Below are positions 1 through 8,798 of a DNA stretch of 64,000 nt, piece by piece (positions within the stretch are counted from its first letter, which is position 1; the number at the start of each line of letters is the position of its first letter). Location of the stretch: assembly GCF_000737325.1 (NCBI RefSeq), contig NZ_CP011125.1, positions 4,898,001 through 4,962,000 on the forward strand, written 5' to 3'. A program made the position numbers and the translations under genes. Under the pieces are notes generated by a model. It did no database searches and was not told the DNA's origin. It saw only the letters and a list, made by a program, of their open reading frames with translations. Source of the stretch: Sandaracinus amylolyticus (lineage in GTDB: Bacteria > Myxococcota_A > Polyangia > Polyangiales > Sandaracinaceae).

Positions 1-84
1 GCCGAGCAGGAACACGAAGCCGCCGAGCAACGCCAGCGCGACGAGCACCAGCAGGCCGACCCGCGCTTCGAGCGAGAGCTTCAT
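1..84 (-). CDS. MCE/MlaD-family protein, N-terminus only
   Basis: The gene runs off the left edge; only the first 28 codons are present. The start is the ATG at 84-82, which overlaps the stop of the ATPase upstream in a 4-base ATGA junction. The visible residues are a short basic N-terminus followed by a long hydrophobic stretch rich in Leu, Val, Gly and Ala, the single membrane anchor expected of MlaD/MCE proteins (motif [12 protein letters not shown]). Position directly behind an MlaF-type ATPase and MlaE permeases supports this. MCE proteins form periplasmic hexamers that carry lipids between membranes. The MCE domain itself lies outside the window, so the call rests on the anchor and context. 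Confidence 0.7.
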
Positions 85-827
85 GTCTCGTACGGCCCCT
101 CGGAACGGCCTTCGATGAACTGGCGCACCACGGGATCCTCGGTGCGCCGGAGCTCTTCGGGCGTCCCCACCACGCGAACGCGACCCTTGTACAGCATCGC
201 GATTCGGTCGGCGATCGTGAAGATGGACGTGAGATCGTGCGAGACGACGATCGCGGTCACGCCGAGCCGATCGCAGAGCTCGCGGATCATCTGATCGACG
301 CGCCGCGCCGACACCGGATCGAGCGACGTCGTGGGCTCGTCGAAGAGCACGTAGCGTGGCTCGAGCGTCAACGCGCGCGCGATCGCGACGCGCTTGCGCA
401 TGCCGTCGCCGAGCTCCGCCGGATAGCGATCGCCGAACGCCTCCATGTGGACCTGCTCGAGCCTTCGTCGCGCCTCGACGCGCGCGTCCCTCAGCGAGAG
501 CCCGCGGTGCATGCGCAGCGGGAGCGCGACGTTCTCCTCGCACGTCATGGAGTCGAAGAGCGTCGAGCTCTGGAAGACCATCGCGCAGCGCTTCCGCACC
601 GGATGGAAGTCGGCCTCGGACAGGCGCGAGACTTCCTGCCCGTCGAGCCAGATCTCCCCGGAATCCGGGCGCAGAAGGCCGATGAGGTGCTTGATCAGCA
701 CGCTCTTGCCGACGCCCGATCCGCCGATGACGAAGAAGCACTCTCCGTCGTTCACGTCGATCGACACGTCGTCGAGCACGACCTTCGGACCGAACGCCTT
801 GCGTAGGTGCTTGAACTGGATCGGCAC
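81..827 (-). CDS. MlaF-like ABC ATPase with degenerate signature motif
   Basis: 248 aa, the normal length for an MlaF/Mkl-type ATPase of MCE lipid transporters. Walker A (GGSGVGKS, residues 35-42), Q-loop Q86, Walker B with catalytic Glu (LFDEP, E164) and the switch histidine (VSHD, H197) are all intact. The ABC signature, normally LSGG in this family, reads LGDG (residues 139-142) before the usual MRKR, so the gamma-phosphate-contacting Ser is lost. It ends in an ATGA overlap with the MCE gene and starts two bases after an MlaE permease stop. The second ATPase of the same operon (3692-4426) has an intact LSGGQ but no switch His. The two would complement each other in a heterodimer with one consensus and one degenerate ATP site. 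Confidence 0.9.
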
Positions 828-828
828 G

Positions 829-1608
829 TCAGCCCGGGAAGAGCAGGAAGCCCACGCTGCTGATCACGAAGTTCAGCACGATGACCGCGAGCGAGCTCTG
901 CACGACCGCGTTCGTCGTCGCCCAGCCCACGCCCTCCGAGCCGCCGAACGTCGTGAGCCCACAGCGCGCGCTGACGATCGGGATCGCCGCGCCGTACGCG
1001 AGCATCTTCGTCAGCCCGACGATCACGTCGCCGGCATCGACCATCGAGAAGTTCGCGAACGTCGCGTAGTTGACCTCGAACACCACGTTCGCGGTGACCA
1101 TCCCCGCGCCGAACGCGACGACCGCTGCCCAGATCAGCAGACAGAACGTCATCAGCACCGAGGCGAGGAAGCGCGGCACAACGAGGTACTCGATCGGATC
1201 GGCGGCGCACATGCGCATCGCGTCGACCTGCTCGGTGACGACCATCGATCCGATCTCCGCGGCGATGCCCGCGCCCACGCGCGTCGCGAGCATCATCGCG
1301 CCGATCGACGCAGCGAGATCGCGCACCAGCAGCTCGGCGAACGTCGCGCCCAGCATGCTGAGCTCGGGCACGAGCTTGAGCGCCTGCAGGCCCGCTTGGA
1401 ACACCATGATGGTGCCGATGAAGCCCATCGTGACGCTCACGAAGAACACCGAGCGATTGCCCATCTGATAGGCCTGCTCGACGATCGTGCGGCGATCACG
1501 ACGGCCGCGGATCGCGAGCACGATGATGCGAGCGAGCATCGCGAAGAGGTCGCGGAGCTCGCGCACGAGGTGCAGCACCGGGGCTCCGATCGTCTCGAGC
1601 GCGCTCAT
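829..1608 (-). CDS. MlaE-family permease (first of two)
   Basis: 259 aa integral membrane protein of the MlaE/YrbE family, the inner-membrane permease of MCE lipid ABC transporters. It has several hydrophobic helices and the family's conserved motif with an acidic residue in a membrane-proximal loop ([16 protein letters not shown], about residues 115-130), followed by the [10 protein letters not shown] segment. ATG start at 1608. It lies between a second MlaE gene (stop at 1652) and the ATPase gene that starts 2 bases after it. Two non-identical permeases side by side suggest a heterodimeric membrane part, as in mycobacterial YrbEA/YrbEB. Regulation is probably by the shared operon transcript. 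Confidence 0.92.
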
Positions 1609-1651
1609 CAGCTGGAGAGCTCCGCCGGCGAGCCGATGTGGGACCAGCCGC

Positions 1652-2449
1652 TCATCCGAGCAGGTACGTGGAGAAGTAGTCGAGCACGAAGATGCCGCTC
1701 GCTGCCGCGACGACCGCCGCGTTCACGGCGCGTCCGACGCCCGGCGCGCCACCCTTCACGCTCAGCCCGAAGTGGCACGAGGTGAGCGCGATCATCACGC
1801 CGAACGCGACGCTCTTGATGAGCCCCGTCGCGAGATCCCACTCGTCGAGCAGCACGGTCAGGGAGCTGACGAACGAGCGCGGATCGACGTCGAGCAGCAC
1901 CTTCGCTGCGCCGATCGCGCCGACGATCGCGACCGCGTCGCCGACGATCGTCAGCAAGAAGAGCATCACGATCATCGAGATCACGCGCGGCAGGATCAGG
2001 TACGAGACCGGATCGATCGCGAGCGCGCGCAGCGCGTCGATCTGATCGGTGACCACCATGGTCCCGAGCTCGGCGGTGTTGTTCGCGCCGACGCGCCCGC
2101 TGAACATCAGCGCGATCAGCAGCGGACCGACCTCGCGCAGCGTCGCGAAGCCCGCGCCCCAGCCGACGATCTCCTTCGCGTTGAAGCGCATCACGAGCGG
2201 CGCGGCCTGGATGACCATGATCGCGCCGACGAAGATCGCCGTGACCGTCACGATGCCGACCGAGCGCACGCCGGTCTTGTGCAGGTTCTTCACGAGCTCG
2301 TCGCGATCCACGCGCGGCGGCAGGAGGCGGCGCAGCAATCGCGCGGCGAGCACGATCATCCCGCCGAGCTCGCCCGAGACGTGCAGCAGCGAGCCGCCGA
2401 TGCGCGACGGAACGCTCAGGTAGAAGGGTTCGTCCTCACCCGTGCTCAC
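1652..2449 (-). CDS. MlaE-family permease (second of two)
   Basis: 265 aa from a GTG start at 2449. Longer upstream readings in this frame have no homology-like sequence and run into the neighbouring gene, so this start is preferred. Contains the MlaE signature (TAELGTMVVTDQIDAL) and DPVSYLILPR, with about five hydrophobic segments. It differs clearly from the other permease at 829-1608, so the pair is an old duplication and not a recent copy. An N-terminal extension of about 40 residues precedes the conserved domain. The gene follows a small membrane protein (stop at 2470) after 20 bases and precedes the other permease by 43 bases, all on one strand. Confidence 0.9.
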   Translation of the reverse strand: MSTGEDEPFYLSVPSRIGGSLLHVSGELGGMIVLAARLLRRLLPPRVDRDELVKNLHKTGVRSVGIVTVTAIFVGAIMVIQAAPLVMRFNAKEIVGWGAGFATLREVGPLLIALMFSGRVGANNTAELGTMVVTDQIDALRALAIDPVSYLILPRVISMIVMLFLLTIVGDAVAIVGAIGAAKVLLDVDPRSFVSSLTVLLDEWDLATGLIKSVAFGVMIALTSCHFGLSVKGGAPGVGRAVNAAVVAAASGIFVLDYFSTYLLG

Positions 2450-2469
2450 GCGGCGCGAGCATAACGCGG

Positions 2470-3042
2470 TCAGCCGAGCCGCAGCGTCTCCTCGATCGCG
2501 TCGAACGCGCGCTCGATCGCAGCCTCGCGCGCCGCGCGGCGGAACACGAGCTGACCCGCGATCATCAGCGCGACGACGGCGCCGAAGACGCCGATCGTCA
2601 TCAGCGGGCGGTGGTGCCCGCGCAACAGCACGTCGCACACCGCGGCCACCACGAAGATCGGCATCGTGATCGGCACGAACCCCTGCGTCGCGCGCAGCAC
2701 GATCTCGCGCCCCGTGCGCTCGAGATCGATCCGCACGAGCCACTGGTCGCGACGGTAGAAACCGTACGCGGTGCGGAGCGCGAACGAGCGCCCGTCGCCG
2801 CTCGACATCAGCACGGCGTCGTCGAGATCGACGCGCTCGGGGAACGTCGGGAGCGCGGCCTCGGTCTCGTTTCCGAACCGATAGCTCCGCGGCCCATCGT
2901 GCTCGCGCGGACGGTCCAGCGTGATCCGCCGCTCGGGCGTCAAGCGCAGGAACGCGAGCCGTGCGAGCCACTGCGGACGCGCGAAGAAGACGATCGTCTC
3001 GATCAAGAGCGGCGCCATCGCGGCGTAGAGCAGTGGGCTCAT
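2470..3042 (-). CDS. Membrane protein of unknown function, MCE operon, paralogue 2
   Basis: 190 aa; I do not recognise the family. N-terminal hydrophobic segment (about residues 3-20), then a motif shared with the next gene (ARLAFLRLTPER), a soluble mid-section rich in beta-prone residues, two adjacent hydrophobic segments near the C-terminus, and an amphipathic tail (AIERAFDAIEETL). The ATG at 3042 overlaps the stop of the upstream paralogue (ATGA), indicating translational coupling. Its place between the ATPase and permease genes of an MCE operon suggests an accessory subunit, but the sequence alone gives no biochemical role. Confidence 0.75.
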   Translation of the reverse strand: MSPLLYAAMAPLLIETIVFFARPQWLARLAFLRLTPERRITLDRPREHDGPRSYRFGNETEAALPTFPERVDLDDAVLMSSGDGRSFALRTAYGFYRRDQWLVRIDLERTGREIVLRATQGFVPITMPIFVVAAVCDVLLRGHHRPLMTIGVFGAVVALMIAGQLVFRRAAREAAIERAFDAIEETLRLG

Positions 3043-3653
3043 CGCGCGCAGGATGACACGTCGCGCACGGCGGGCGCCGGTCGCGTGAGCGCGCGCTCGA
3101 CCGCGTCGTACGCACGCTCGATCGCGGTCGGCCGCGGCTCGGCGCGCTGCGCGATCCACGCGAGCGCCGACACCGCCGCCGCGAGCAGCGCGATCGCCGG
3201 CAGCGACGACGACGCGCGCAGCGTCACCTCGGCGATCGACACTGCGAGCACGAGCGGCGTCACGAGCGGAACGGGCAGCATCCGCGCGCGCAGGTGCACG
3301 CCGTCGTCCTCCCAGGCCAGATCGACGCGCACCGGCCACGCCCTTCGTCGTTCTCCCCAGCAGAACGATCGACCGCGACGCGTCGTCGACGTCGCGAGCA
3401 CCGTGTCGGCGATCGCGACGCGCGCGGGGAGCCCTCGCGCCACGCGCACGGCCGCGCTCCGATATCCGGCGCGCACGTCGACGACGCGCACCTCGGGAGG
3501 CACGCGCACGATCCGCTCGGCCGTGAGCGGCAGGAACGCGAGGCGCGCGATCCACCTCCGCGGCAGCATCAGCGCGAGCATCTCGAGCGCGCAGAGCGCG
3601 AGCGCGATCCACGCCGCGTCCGGCAGCTCGCGCGTCGCGATCCACGCCTCCAT
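3039..3653 (-). CDS. Membrane protein of unknown function, MCE operon, paralogue 1
   Basis: 204 aa from the ATG at 3653. Same architecture as the following gene: N-terminal membrane segment, ARLAFLPLTAER motif, a beta-rich middle, two C-terminal membrane helices and a tail motif (AIERAYDAVERAL). The two proteins are clearly paralogous but diverged. The stop overlaps the start of paralogue 2 by 4 bases; the ATPase stop lies 38 bases upstream. No catalytic motif is visible. As part of a two-ATPase, two-permease MCE operon, this duplicated pair may form matching accessory subunits (inference). Confidence 0.75.
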   Translation of the reverse strand: MEAWIATRELPDAAWIALALCALEMLALMLPRRWIARLAFLPLTAERIVRVPPEVRVVDVRAGYRSAAVRVARGLPARVAIADTVLATSTTRRGRSFCWGERRRAWPVRVDLAWEDDGVHLRARMLPVPLVTPLVLAVSIAEVTLRASSSLPAIALLAAAVSALAWIAQRAEPRPTAIERAYDAVERALTRPAPAVRDVSSCAR

Positions 3654-3691
3654 CCGCTCAGTCTGCGACGCCGCGGCGCGAGGAACACTCG

Positions 3692-4426
3692 TCAGAGCGG
3701 GCCGTCGGTCAGACCGTGCACGAATTGCCGCACTTCCGGCACCTCGGACGCGAGCGCCTGCTCGCGCGTGCCCTCGAAGATCAGCTTGCCTCCGTGCAGC
3801 ATGCCGACGCGATCCGCGATCGTGAGCAGGCCGCGCACGTCGCTCGAGATCACGACGTTGGTCGTGCGGTGCGTGCGCTGCTCCTCGCGGATGAGGTCGT
3901 AGATCTTCTGGCTCGTCACCGGATCGAGCCCCGCCGTCGGCTCGTCGTAGAGCAGCACGCGCGGCCGCGACACCGTCGCGCGCGCCACGCCGACGCGCTT
4001 CTTCTGACCGCCGCTGAGCCCGGCGGGCAGCCTCGGCTCGAAGCCCGGGAGCGACACCCGCGCGAGCCGCTCGGCGACGCGCTCCTGGATCTCTCGTTCT
4101 CCCAGAGAGAACAATCGGCGCAGCGGGAACGCGATGTTCTCGCCCACCGTCATGAAGTCGAAGAGCGCGTAGTTCTGGAAGAGCATGCCGACGTCGCGGC
4201 GCACCTCCATCAGCCCCGCCTCGTCGAGCTCGCCGAGCGTGCGACCGAGCAGCTCGACGCGTCCCTGCGAGGGCCGGATCAGCCCCGCGAGCGTCTTGAG
4301 CAGCACGCTCTTGCCCGCCGCCCCCGGCCCGATCAGCGCGTAGATGCAGCCCTCGGGGACCTCGAGCGAGACGCCGCGCAGCACCGGCTGGCGGAACGCG
4401 ACGTGGACGTCCACGGCTCGGATCAC
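3692..4426 (-). CDS. MlaF-like ABC ATPase lacking the switch histidine
   Basis: 244 aa ABC ATPase of the MlaF type and probably the first gene of the MCE operon. Walker A (GPGAAGKS, 33-40), Q-loop Q84, intact signature LSGGQKKR (137-144) and Walker B with catalytic Glu (LLYDEP, E162) are present. At the H-loop, where the paralogue at 81-827 has VSHD, this protein reads VISSD: Ser195 replaces the switch histidine (codon at 3842-3844). Loss of this His normally cripples hydrolysis at the site that uses this Walker A. The other ATPase lacks the signature Ser that would face the same site, so both defects fall in one composite site. The alternative is two separate, partly inactive homodimers. Confidence 0.9.
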   Translation of the reverse strand: MIRAVDVHVAFRQPVLRGVSLEVPEGCIYALIGPGAAGKSVLLKTLAGLIRPSQGRVELLGRTLGELDEAGLMEVRRDVGMLFQNYALFDFMTVGENIAFPLRRLFSLGEREIQERVAERLARVSLPGFEPRLPAGLSGGQKKRVGVARATVSRPRVLLYDEPTAGLDPVTSQKIYDLIREEQRTHRTTNVVISSDVRGLLTIADRVGMLHGGKLIFEGTREQALASEVPEVRQFVHGLTDGPL

Positions 4427-4518: not shown

Positions 4519-5772
4519 ATGTCGGAGCCCACGCTCGCCCAGGTCGATCCCGAGATCGCGTCGCTCATCGCGAAGGAGGAGCGCCGTCAGCTCGACAGCA
4601 TCCGCCTGATCGCGAGCGAGAACTACGCGTCGCGCGCGGTGCAGGAAGCGGCCGGCAGCGCGCTGAACAACAAGTACAGCGAGGGCTATCCGGGCAAGCG
4701 CTACTACCAGGGCCAGGAGTACGTCGACAAGGTCGAGACCCTCGCCATCGAGCGCATCAAGAAGCTCTTCGGCGTCGAGCACGTGAACGTGCAGCCCTAC
4801 TCGGGCTCGCCCGCGAACCTCGCGGTCCACTACGCGTTCCTGCGCCCCGGCGACAAGACCGTCGGCCTCGGGCTGCCCGCGGGCGGTCACCTCACGCACG
4901 GCTGGAAGGTCTCGATCACCGGCGACTACTTCGAGGCGCACCAGTACGGCGTGCGCGAGAACGACCACCGGCTCGACATGGACCAGGTCGCGCGGCTCGC
5001 GCGCGAGCACAAGCCGAAGCTCATGTGGTGCGGCACCACGGCGTACCCGCGCCACGTCGACTACGCGAAGTTCGCGGAGATCGCGAACGAGGTGGGCGCG
5101 ATCCTGGTCGCCGACATCGCGCACGTCTCCGGTCTGATCGCGGGCAAGGCGCACCCGAGCCCGGTGGGCCTCGCGCCGATCGTCACGAGCACCACGCACA
5201 AGACGCTGCGCGGTCCGCGCGGCGGCATGATCCTCTGCGACGCGAAGTACGCGAAGGAGATCGACAAGGCGGTGTTCCCGGGCCTCCAGGGTGGCCCGCA
5301 CAACAGCGGCATCGCGGCGCTCGCGGTCGCGGCGCACGAGGCGCTGCAGCCGAGCTTCGAGACCTACGCGCGCAACGTGGTGACGAACGCGAAGGCAATG
5401 GCCGAGACGCTGATGTCGCGCGGCATCGATCTCGTCACCGGCGGCACCGACACGCACCTGATCCTCGCGGATCTCACGAGCAAGAACGTCGCGGGCAAGC
5501 CGGCGGCGATCGCGCTCGAGAAGGCGGGGATCGTCTGCAACTACAACTCGGTGCCCTTCGACAAGCGCAAGCCGTTCGATCCGAGCGGCATCCGCCTCGG
5601 CACGCCCGCGGTGACGAGCCGCGGCATGGGCCCCGACGAGATGAAGCGCATCGGCGGCTGGATCGCCGACGTGGTCGAGGCGCCGACCGACGAGAAGGTG
5701 ATCGCGCGCGTGCGCGGCGAGCTGCTCGCGATGTGCCAGCAGTTCCCGGCGCCCGGCCTCGAGCGTCGCTGA
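4519..5772 (+). CDS. glyA: Serine hydroxymethyltransferase
   Basis: 417 aa, the same length as classical bacterial GlyA. It interconverts serine and glycine with tetrahydrofolate, supplying one-carbon units; PLP enzyme, cytosolic. The PLP-binding lysine is in STTHKTLRGPRG (K228). Other family landmarks are LIASENYAS, NNKYSEGYPGKRYY, the HVSGLIAG segment with the PLP-contacting Asp just before it, and the C-terminal GIRLGTPAVTSRG. The ATG at 4519 is preferred over in-frame upstream codons because it follows a GAGGAG Shine-Dalgarno at about 4504-4509 and gives the family-typical N-terminus. Transcribed alone; divergent from the MCE operon. Confidence 0.98.
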   Translation: MSEPTLAQVDPEIASLIAKEERRQLDSIRLIASENYASRAVQEAAGSALNNKYSEGYPGKRYYQGQEYVDKVETLAIERIKKLFGVEHVNVQPYSGSPANLAVHYAFLRPGDKTVGLGLPAGGHLTHGWKVSITGDYFEAHQYGVRENDHRLDMDQVARLAREHKPKLMWCGTTAYPRHVDYAKFAEIANEVGAILVADIAHVSGLIAGKAHPSPVGLAPIVTSTTHKTLRGPRGGMILCDAKYAKEIDKAVFPGLQGGPHNSGIAALAVAAHEALQPSFETYARNVVTNAKAMAETLMSRGIDLVTGGTDTHLILADLTSKNVAGKPAAIALEKAGIVCNYNSVPFDKRKPFDPSGIRLGTPAVTSRGMGPDEMKRIGGWIADVVEAPTDEKVIARVRGELLAMCQQFPAPGLERR

Positions 5773-5806
5773 TCGATTTCGAGCGATACTCCGCGGCGCT
5801 TGGGGG

Positions 5807-6007
5807 GTGGGCACGACCGCGATCGGCGGCGCGTGCGAGCGCGATCAACAGTGCGTCGCGGGCGCGCTCTGCACGCACGTCGCCGCGCTCGGCCGTCGCG
5901 CGTGCGTCGCGCTCTGCACCGTCGGCGAGCCGTGCCCCGGCGGGACGACGTGCATCGAGGGCGCGCGCGTTCGCGATCTGATCGTCGGCACCTGCCCGCT
6001 GCCCTGA
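5807..6007 (+). CDS. Small cysteine-rich protein or fragment
   Basis: 66 aa from a GTG at 5807 preceded by a G-run. It carries eight cysteines in the spacing often seen in myxobacterial secreted Cys-rich modules (GACERDQQC, ALC, RRAC, ALC, EPC, TTC, GTC). There is no signal peptide or lipobox, which is odd for a disulfide-rich protein. The frame stays open upstream into the 3' end of glyA. It may be the degraded C-terminal remnant of a longer secreted protein, or a cytosolic metal-binding peptide. I do not assign a function, and whether it is translated is uncertain. Confidence 0.4.
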   Translation: MGTTAIGGACERDQQCVAGALCTHVAALGRRACVALCTVGEPCPGGTTCIEGARVRDLIVGTCPLP

Positions 6008-6058
6008 TCGCGCGCCGAGAAGTTGACGCGGAGCGCGCGCTCGGCGCTCTCTCCTCGC

Positions 6059-7585
6059 ATGCGCCCGCGCGAGAGCACGAGCGGCAACGCACGACCGCGA
6101 GCACGCGTCGTGGGCGGGCTCGCGTGTCTGCTCGTCGCGAGCGCGCTCGCCGGCCTCGCGCTCGCGCAGCACGAGCCCGTGCGCGCCGCCGTCCCCGACG
6201 CGACCGTTCGCATCGCAGGCGCGGAGATCACGGACGGCGCCGACGCCGGCACGATCGCGGCCGACGTCGCGCGCGCGTGGGGCGAGCAGCCGATCGCGCT
6301 GCGCATCGGCGAGGAGCGCGTCGAGGGGACGCGCGCATCGTTCGGCGGTCGCATCGACGCCGCCGCGCTCACCGCGCGCATCGAGCAGGCGCGCGACCCG
6401 GCGTCGCTGATGCGACGGCTGCACGCGCAGCTCTCGACCGCTGCGCCGCTCGAGCTGCCGGTCGACGTGCGCGTCGACGCGACGAGCACGCTCGCGATGC
6501 TCCTCGAGCGCAAGGATCACCTCGACGTGCGCCCGCGCGACGCGCGCATCGAGCCCCGCACCGGCGCGATCGTGCCCGAGCGCGAGGGCCTCACGCTCGA
6601 CGTGCACGGCACGCTCGACGCGCTCGCGGACGCGATGCGCAGCGGCGCGCCGGAAGCGAGCGCGCGCATCCTCCGCGAGCGCCCGCGCCGCACCGCGCGC
6701 GACCTCGCGAACGTGCGGCTCGACGCGACGCTCGGCTCCTTCGAGACGCGCTACAGCACGTCGCCCGACGCCGCCGCGCGCACCCACAACCTCCGCGTCG
6801 CCGCGGCGCGCCTCGACGGCCTCGTGCTGATGCCCGGCGAGACCCTCGACTTCAACGACGTCGTCGGCGAGCGCAACGAGGCGAACGGCTTCCGCCCTGC
6901 CCCGCAGATCGCGGCCGGCGAGCTCGTCGACGGCATCGGAGGCGGCACCTGCCAGATCGCGGGCACGCTCCACGCCGCCGCGTTCTTCGCGGGCCTGCCG
7001 ATCGTCGAGCGCTCGCCCCACAGCCGGCCGAGCACGTACATCTGGATGGGCCTCGACGCCGTCGTCGTGTACGCGCGGCTCAACCTCCGCTTCACGAACG
7101 ATCTCCCGTTCCCGATCGCGCTCGCGATGAGCGTCGAGGGCGGCGTGGTGCGCGCGGAGATCCGCGGCGCGTCGTCGGGCCGTCTCGTCTCGTTCGCGCG
7201 ACGCATCGACTCGATCGCGCCGTTCCGCGAGCGCACCGAAGAAGACGCGTCGCTGCCCGCCGGCGTCCGCGTGCTCGATCAGCGCGGCGTGCCCGGCTTC
7301 ACCGTCGTGCGCGACCGCGTGATCCGCGACGTCGAGCGCAACCAGGCGCGCCGCCAGCGCATCGAGGACGTGTACCCGCCGACCGATCAGATCTGGCGCG
7401 TCGGCACCGGCCCCGCGGCGCCCGCGGGCTACGTCGCGGAGGCCGGCGACGATCACCCGGAGTACACGACCGACGAGTACCTCGTCGCGACGCAAGGCGC
7501 GGGCGTCGAGGGCACGGAGATCACCCGCCGCGGCGGCGTCAGCACGCAGGCGGGCTGGACCCAGAGCTACGTCGCGCCGCGTTGA
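6059..7585 (+). CDS. VanW-domain exported protein
   Basis: 508 aa. An N-terminal hydrophobic segment (VGGLACLLVASALAGLALA, about residues 17-35) is a signal peptide or anchor. The middle resembles the peptidoglycan-binding-like region found before VanW domains. The VanW domain itself spans roughly residues 235-385, with landmarks GETLDFNDVVGER, GGGTCQIAGTLHAAAF and the aromatic STYIWMGLDA. VanW/YoaR-like proteins are cell-envelope proteins of unclear biochemical role. The ATG at 6059 was chosen; an in-frame TTG at 6023 would add 12 residues. No paired vancomycin-resistance genes are nearby, so a resistance role should not be assumed. Confidence 0.88.
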   Translation: MRPRESTSGNARPRARVVGGLACLLVASALAGLALAQHEPVRAAVPDATVRIAGAEITDGADAGTIAADVARAWGEQPIALRIGEERVEGTRASFGGRIDAAALTARIEQARDPASLMRRLHAQLSTAAPLELPVDVRVDATSTLAMLLERKDHLDVRPRDARIEPRTGAIVPEREGLTLDVHGTLDALADAMRSGAPEASARILRERPRRTARDLANVRLDATLGSFETRYSTSPDAAARTHNLRVAAARLDGLVLMPGETLDFNDVVGERNEANGFRPAPQIAAGELVDGIGGGTCQIAGTLHAAAFFAGLPIVERSPHSRPSTYIWMGLDAVVVYARLNLRFTNDLPFPIALAMSVEGGVVRAEIRGASSGRLVSFARRIDSIAPFRERTEEDASLPAGVRVLDQRGVPGFTVVRDRVIRDVERNQARRQRIEDVYPPTDQIWRVGTGPAAPAGYVAEAGDDHPEYTTDEYLVATQGAGVEGTEITRRGGVSTQAGWTQSYVAPR

Positions 7586-7604
7586 TTCGTGGTACCAACG
7601 ACGC

Positions 7605-8798
7605 GTGATCTCCGGTCGTCGCATCGTGCTCGGCGTCGGCGGTGGCATCGCCGCGTACAAGGCCGTGGTGCTCGCGCGCGAGCTGCTCCGTCGTGGCGCG
7701 CAGCTGCGCGTCGTCATGACCGACTCGGCGACGCGCTTCGTCGGTCCGGTCACGTTCACCGGGATCACGGGCGCGCCGCCCGTGATCGATCTCTGGGACG
7801 CGAAGTACGCCGGCGAGATCCACGTCGAGCTCGCGGCGTGGGGCGAGGCGATCGTCGTCGCGCCCGCGACCGCGAACCTGCTCGCGCGCATGGCCTCGGG
7901 CATCGCCGACGACGCGCTCTCGGCGACGCTCCTCTGCAGCGACAAGCGCGTGCTGGTCGCGCCCGCGATGCACCACCGCATGTGGTCGCACGCCGCGACG
8001 CGCCGCAACGTCGCGCGACTGCGCGAGGACGGCGTGCTCTTCGCCGGCCCGGTGTCGGGCCCGCTCGCGAGCGGTGAAGAGGGCATGGGCCGCATGGCCG
8101 AGCCCGACGCGATCGCCGATGCGCTCGAGGTGCTGTTCCGCGAGACGCGCGACCTCTCGGGCCACACCGTCCTGATCTCCGCGGGCCCCACGCTCGAGCC
8201 GGTCGATCCCGTGCGCTTCCTCGGCAACCGGTCGAGCGGACGGATGGGCTACGCGATCGCCGAGCGCGCGCGACAGCGCGGCGCGCGCGTGATCCTCGTG
8301 AGCGGCCCGGTCGCGCTCGCCGCGCCGCAGGGCGTCGAGCGCGTCTCGGTGCGCACCGCGATCGAGATGCAGGAGGCGATCACGTCGCGCCTGCCCGACT
8401 GCGACGCGGTGATCATGGCGGCCGCCGTCGCCGACTTCCGCCCGCGCGAGGCCGCGGTGCACAAGCTGAAGAAGCTCGAGGGCGAAGAGACGCGCGTCAT
8501 CGAGCTCGTCCGCAACCCCGACATCCTCGCGGACCTCGGCGCGTCGAGGCGCGGCGCGCGCCCGGTGCTCGTCGGCTTCGCGGTGGAGACCGAGAACCTC
8601 GTCGCGGCCGCGCGCACGAAGCTCGAGACCAAGAAGGTCGACCTCGTCGTCGCCAACCACGCGAGCGTCGCGTTCGAAGGCGACGACAACGAGGCGACGC
8701 TCGTCACGCGCGACGACGAAGAGAGCACCGGCCGCGTCAGCAAGCACGCGCTCGCCGATCGCATCCTCGATCGCGTCCACGCCCTGCTCGAGCGCTGA
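7605..8798 (+). CDS. coaBC: Bifunctional phosphopantothenoylcysteine decarboxylase / phosphopantothenate-cysteine ligase
   Basis: 397 aa, standard CoaBC length. It makes 4'-phosphopantetheine from 4'-phosphopantothenate and cysteine, two steps of CoA synthesis. The CoaC half (about 1-185) is a flavoprotein with GGGIAAYKA, the active-site His in IHVELAAW and the substrate-clamp motif APAMHHRMW. The CoaB half (about 186-397) starts with GHTVLISAGPT and includes FLGNRSSGRMG, AAVADFRP and the lysine-rich KLKKLEG. The clamp motif has His where many homologues have Asn (PAMN), a variant I recall from other high-GC bacteria. GTG start at 7605, 19 bases after the VanW gene. Confidence 0.97.
   Translation: MISGRRIVLGVGGGIAAYKAVVLARELLRRGAQLRVVMTDSATRFVGPVTFTGITGAPPVIDLWDAKYAGEIHVELAAWGEAIVVAPATANLLARMASGIADDALSATLLCSDKRVLVAPAMHHRMWSHAATRRNVARLREDGVLFAGPVSGPLASGEEGMGRMAEPDAIADALEVLFRETRDLSGHTVLISAGPTLEPVDPVRFLGNRSSGRMGYAIAERARQRGARVILVSGPVALAAPQGVERVSVRTAIEMQEAITSRLPDCDAVIMAAAVADFRPREAAVHKLKKLEGEETRVIELVRNPDILADLGASRRGARPVLVGFAVETENLVAAARTKLETKKVDLVVANHASVAFEGDDNEATLVTRDDEESTGRVSKHALADRILDRVHALLER

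Follow-up and report, generated by a model that had tools for sequence, protein, structure and literature searches.

A putative MCE transporter of Myxococcota with two different ATPases and substitutions confined to one composite ATP site

Seven genes at the beginning of the window, a 64,000-nucleotide stretch of Sandaracinus amylolyticus DNA, include two for different MlaF-type ATPases, F1 and F2, which very probably form a heterodimer on a pair of MlaE permeases, E1 and E2, with one type of MCE ring, giving a transporter with one consensus and one degenerate ATP site. The consensus/degenerate site design is familiar from drug exporters, TAP, and CFTR; the system described here would extend it to MlaE-type (type VIII) ABC transporters. 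We propose that in site 1 the LSGGQ of F2 would complete a set of F1 motifs (Walker A, Walker B, Glu, and His), giving a fully consensus site at which ATP should be hydrolysed. In site 2 the Walker A and altered Glu or His of F2 would meet the degenerate signature of F1; we expect ATP to bind there but to be hydrolysed slowly, if at all, and this site might act as a clamp while site 1 works. The observations behind this proposal are the sequences, the operon, the conservation of motifs over two phyla, and the co-occurrence of the genes, and from them we infer heterodimerisation, hydrolysis at one site, the lipid substrate (presumed from the family), and the direction of transport.

Open reading frames read in the window and the adjoining DNA gave seven minus-strand genes in the order F2-X-Y-E2-E1-F1-MCE. 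Throughout this series the genes overlap or are separated by fewer than 45 bases, and they are therefore likely to form a single operon:

3692..4426, minus strand: F2, MlaF-type ATPase; Walker A, LSGGQ, and Glu162 intact, switch His replaced by Ser195
3039..3653, minus strand: X, small membrane protein without a family match, 32% identical to Y
2470..3042, minus strand: Y, small membrane protein without a family match, paralogue of X
1652..2449, minus strand: E2, MlaE permease (PF02405, 225 bits; cut-off 22.5)
829..1608, minus strand: E1, MlaE permease (PF02405, 180 bits; cut-off 22.5)
81..827, minus strand: F1, MlaF-type ATPase; Walker A, Glu164, and His197 intact, LGDGM replacing LSGGM/Q
1..84, minus strand: start of the MCE gene, encoding a MlaD-domain protein of 337 amino acids when whole; the rest lies beyond the window (L011:10084-9071)

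The start of the MCE gene (84) overlaps the stop codon of F1, and its product, which matches PF02470 (52.8 bits; cut-off 25.1), consists of one MlaD domain (residues 35-122 of 337) and then a long tail. The initial annotation had placed two different MlaE permeases between the ATPase genes, and this was borne out, as E1 and E2 both belong to PF02405 and are 36% identical. Two distinct MlaE genes thus parallel two distinct ATPases, F1 and F2 being 42% identical. The same annotation had omitted the MCE gene start at 84 and the paralogues X and Y between F2 and E2. X and Y matched nothing in Pfam or NCBIfam and, of all loci read, were present only in those from the genus of the window. MlaB and MlaC genes are absent from the operon, although the source genome has two MlaC-family genes at other places. 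Next to the operon, on the plus strand of the window (4519-8798), are open reading frames that by eye resemble serine hydroxymethyltransferase, VanW-like, and CoaBC-like proteins.

Both ATPases align to MlaF across almost their whole length, and the closest solved relatives of F1 (7CH8, 7D06, 6XBD), like those of F2, are MlaF structures. As F1 and F2 score 196 and 159 bits against the NCBIfam MlaF equivalog, below its cut-off of 441, we regard them as relatives of MlaF rather than MlaF of the E. coli type. In F1 the Walker A motif is GGSGVGKS (from residue 35) and the signature LGDGM (139-143), with Asp163 in Walker B, Glu164, and His197; the corresponding features of F2 are GPGAAGKS (from residue 33), LSGGQ (137-141), Asp161, Glu162, and Ser195. 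In an ungapped alignment with the structure-solved MlaF, Ser195 of F2 lies opposite the switch His and its LSGGQ opposite LSGGM. The motif assignments made earlier were therefore correct: LGDG for LSGG with the switch His kept in F1, LSGGQ kept with Ser195 for the switch His in F2, and Walker A, Walker B, and the catalytic Glu present in both. A sequencing error or pseudogene was rejected as the source of this pattern, which occurs also in a sister species (97% identity) and throughout the phylum.

A search of 379 Myxococcota genomes with E1 yielded about 150 strong matches (E 1e-54 or better), other MlaE proteins lying near 1e-30. We read 120 Myxococcota E1 neighbourhoods, then sought scattered partner genes genome-wide, and counted per genome. 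Among 116 genomes the F1 signature was GDG in 92, SDG in 11, GPS in 6, GPG in 4, and SSG, GEG, and GAG in one each, but never SGG; the catalytic Glu and the switch His were kept in all 116. The F2 signature was SGG in 111 of 112 genomes and AGG in one, the latter in a protein of the Asp/His group. At the Glu and His positions the same 112 genomes had Glu/Ser (61), Asp/His (45), Asp/Ser (3), Asp/Gln (1), Glu/Thr (1), and Glu/His (1); at least one of the catalytic Glu and switch His was thus missing from F2 in 111, and the sole F2 with both residues came from a genome (L135) flagged as 7% contaminated. The F2 lesion followed taxonomic class, with Glu/Ser found only in the class of the window and Asp/His only in other classes; the three double-lesion Asp/Ser proteins were all from the window's class. 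We checked whether the F1 and F2 substitutions vary independently between operons. They did not, as 108 of the 109 genomes with both genes combined a non-SGG F1 with an F2 lacking Glu and/or His. The co-occurrence of LGDG with Ser across myxobacteria, which had been put forward as a check, held in part: a degenerate F1 signature does go with an F2 lesion, but Ser was too narrow a description of that lesion, which in other classes is Glu to Asp with His kept. An obligatory match of LGDG with Ser was rejected, LGDG being found also with Glu to Asp plus His.

Over the 109 Myxococcota genomes with both ATPases, four F1 residues had a weighted entropy of zero: the Walker A Lys, the Walker B Asp, the catalytic Glu, and the switch His. 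Values were 0-0.2 across the SGG of F2 and rose to 0.4-1.3 in the signature of F1 and at the Glu and His positions of F2. The Walker A Lys was invariant in both F1 and F2 in these 109 pairs, and its invariance in F2 leads us to expect that site 2 would bind ATP. This distribution of conservation is what would be predicted if F1 and F2 paired to form one site that hydrolyses ATP and another that only binds it. Taken as a whole, F2 is the faster-evolving of the two (median weighted entropy 1.95, F1 1.24). Phylogenetic trees placed F1 in one clade and F2 in another; in an F2 tree from which the two trait columns had been left out, the Glu and His positions each needed about three changes. Different lesions, each specific to its class, have thus replaced one another at this site, and the small number of independent mutational events (about three per F2 position) indicates that the agreement between F1 and F2 reflects mostly long conservation, not repeated evolution. 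An independent-contrast test of the two F2 lesions comprised three independent pairs only, too few to give it any power.

When the genome collection was scanned with the E1 alignment, the matches listed included Bdellovibrionota besides Myxococcota. Permease matches occurred in 116 of 291 Bdellovibrionota genomes at E 1e-50 or better, about 70 of them reaching 1e-70 or better, as do the operons that we read. These operons have two ATPases, two MlaE, and one MCE gene in the order ATPase-ATPase-MlaE-MlaE-MCE. In the 44 loci read, one ATPase has an SYG signature and keeps Glu and His (43/43); the other keeps SGG and has Asp at the Glu site and Asn at the His site (37/37). All lesions would fall in one composite site in 37 of 37 pairs. 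A tree bearing on common ancestry of the Myxococcota and Bdellovibrionota proteins gave support of 79/51 for the signature-degenerate ATPases and 69/72 for the others, and in a quick tree with more rows the signature-degenerate ATPases of Myxococcota lay apart from those of Bdellovibrionota. It is a real possibility, which on balance we put a little short of probable, that asymmetric single-engine MCE transporters arose twice, by different mutations affecting the same composite site. If so, one-site ATP use would be a selected trait of some lipid transporters, not the quirk of a single lineage.

All substitutions map to one composite site in 108 of 109 Myxococcota and 37 of 37 Bdellovibrionota pairs. 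Such a pattern speaks against the ATPase homodimer of the solved MCE complexes, and the sequences are by far best explained by a heterodimer that has a consensus site and a degenerate one. The initial annotation, which had proposed such a heterodimer with a doubly degenerate second site, gains support from this confinement of the lesions.

An alternative that we consider very improbable is that the operon encodes two separate homodimeric transporters, F1-F1 on one permease and F2-F2 on the other. In some Myxococcota the five genes are scattered in the genome; in one family (f24: L112, L117, L125, L128, L130, L132) they lie in at least three places, with E1 alone, E2 with F2, and F1 with MCE. 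Such scattering favours separate transporters, as F1, F2, E1, and E2 need not then be made together. The motifs persist in these genomes, however, and both sites of either homodimer would be defective, leaving no consensus site, whereas the invariant parts of F1 and F2 are the complementary ones. The genes are also gained and lost together: F1 was not found in seven of seven tested Myxococcota genomes without E1, nor F2 in 30 genomes without E1, where the 24 best F2-like proteins read all fell outside the F2 clade and were MlaF-like ATPases of other kinds that retain Glu and His. Moreover, a single MCE gene usually accompanies the F1/F2/E1/E2 set. Two different ATPases are thus encoded together or co-occur, as in heterodimeric ABC transporters with a degenerate site. 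Some E1-less Myxococcota loci (L386, L388, L390, L392, L397, L400) provide a natural control, having two nearby MlaE genes with one consensus ATPase, a layout resembling mycobacterial YrbE1A/B-MceG; in other phyla, the ATPases of single-permease MCE systems had the SGG/Glu/His consensus in 40 of 40 cases.

Slightly less probable still is that the altered residues are functional substitutes and that both sites hydrolyse ATP at similar rates. Single signature or switch-His substitutions are tolerated by some ABC ATPases, and most Myxococcota F2 proteins have lost only Glu or only His; against this, the motifs that meet in site 2 would always include two or more altered ones, contributed by different proteins, and those in site 1 essentially none. 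Least probable of all is that one ATPase has a regulatory or structural role and that the altered residues reflect drift without a function at an ATP site, for although F2 evolves faster and its lesion differs between classes, its Walker A Lys and SGG are kept almost without exception across deep divergence, and the F1 signature never reverts to SGG, GDG itself being conserved.

The proposed F1/F2 heterodimer shares features with several known systems. E. coli MlaFEDB (MlaF2E2D6B2, with identical ATPases and permeases; PDB 6XBD, PMC7790496) likewise has a MlaF-type ATPase, a MlaE permease, and an MCE (MlaD) protein; here, in contrast, the two encoded ATPases differ from each other, as do the two permeases, and MlaB and MlaC are absent from the operon. 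Mycobacterial Mce1, a YrbE1A/B permease heterodimer with an MceG ATPase homodimer and a ring of six different MCE proteins (PDB 8FED, PMC9882608), is a precedent for two different MlaE-type permeases in one MCE transporter, but the present system has two ATPases and one MCE gene. The minimal MlaEFD of Veillonella parvula, with one kind of ATPase and one of permease in a predicted 2:2:6 complex (PMC10665443), is similar in having an ATPase, a permease, and a long-tailed MCE protein, and in that MlaA, MlaB, and MlaC are not in the operon. TM287/288, BmrCD, and EfrCD are heterodimeric exporters with one consensus and one degenerate site (PMC10632425, PMC4997860); they too have two different ATPase domains, with Asp for the catalytic Glu in the degenerate site, but are fused permease-ATPase half transporters, whereas the ATPases here are separate and the permeases of the MlaE type. 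In a search of an open-access subset of the literature we found no paper on an MCE transporter with two different ATPases; judged from this subset, such a transporter may perhaps be new. The solved MCE transporters compared have two identical ATPases; the operon would represent a natural version with one disabled site, present in two phyla, and offers a way to ask how many ATPs are needed per lipid moved in MCE transport and why a degenerate site is kept.

Two other kinds of MlaF-like ATPase with altered motifs were seen in the course of this work. One, at several Myxococcota loci (L219, L220, L394, L395, L398, L399, L401, L402), usually has an MCE gene nearby, and no MlaE was seen next to it; its signature is SAG, SQG, or SSG, and Glu and His are kept. 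The other is a lone ATPase of the source genome (L014, 5740137-5740847), in which the catalytic Glu is replaced by Asp (YDDP); neither a MlaE nor an MCE gene was found in its vicinity.
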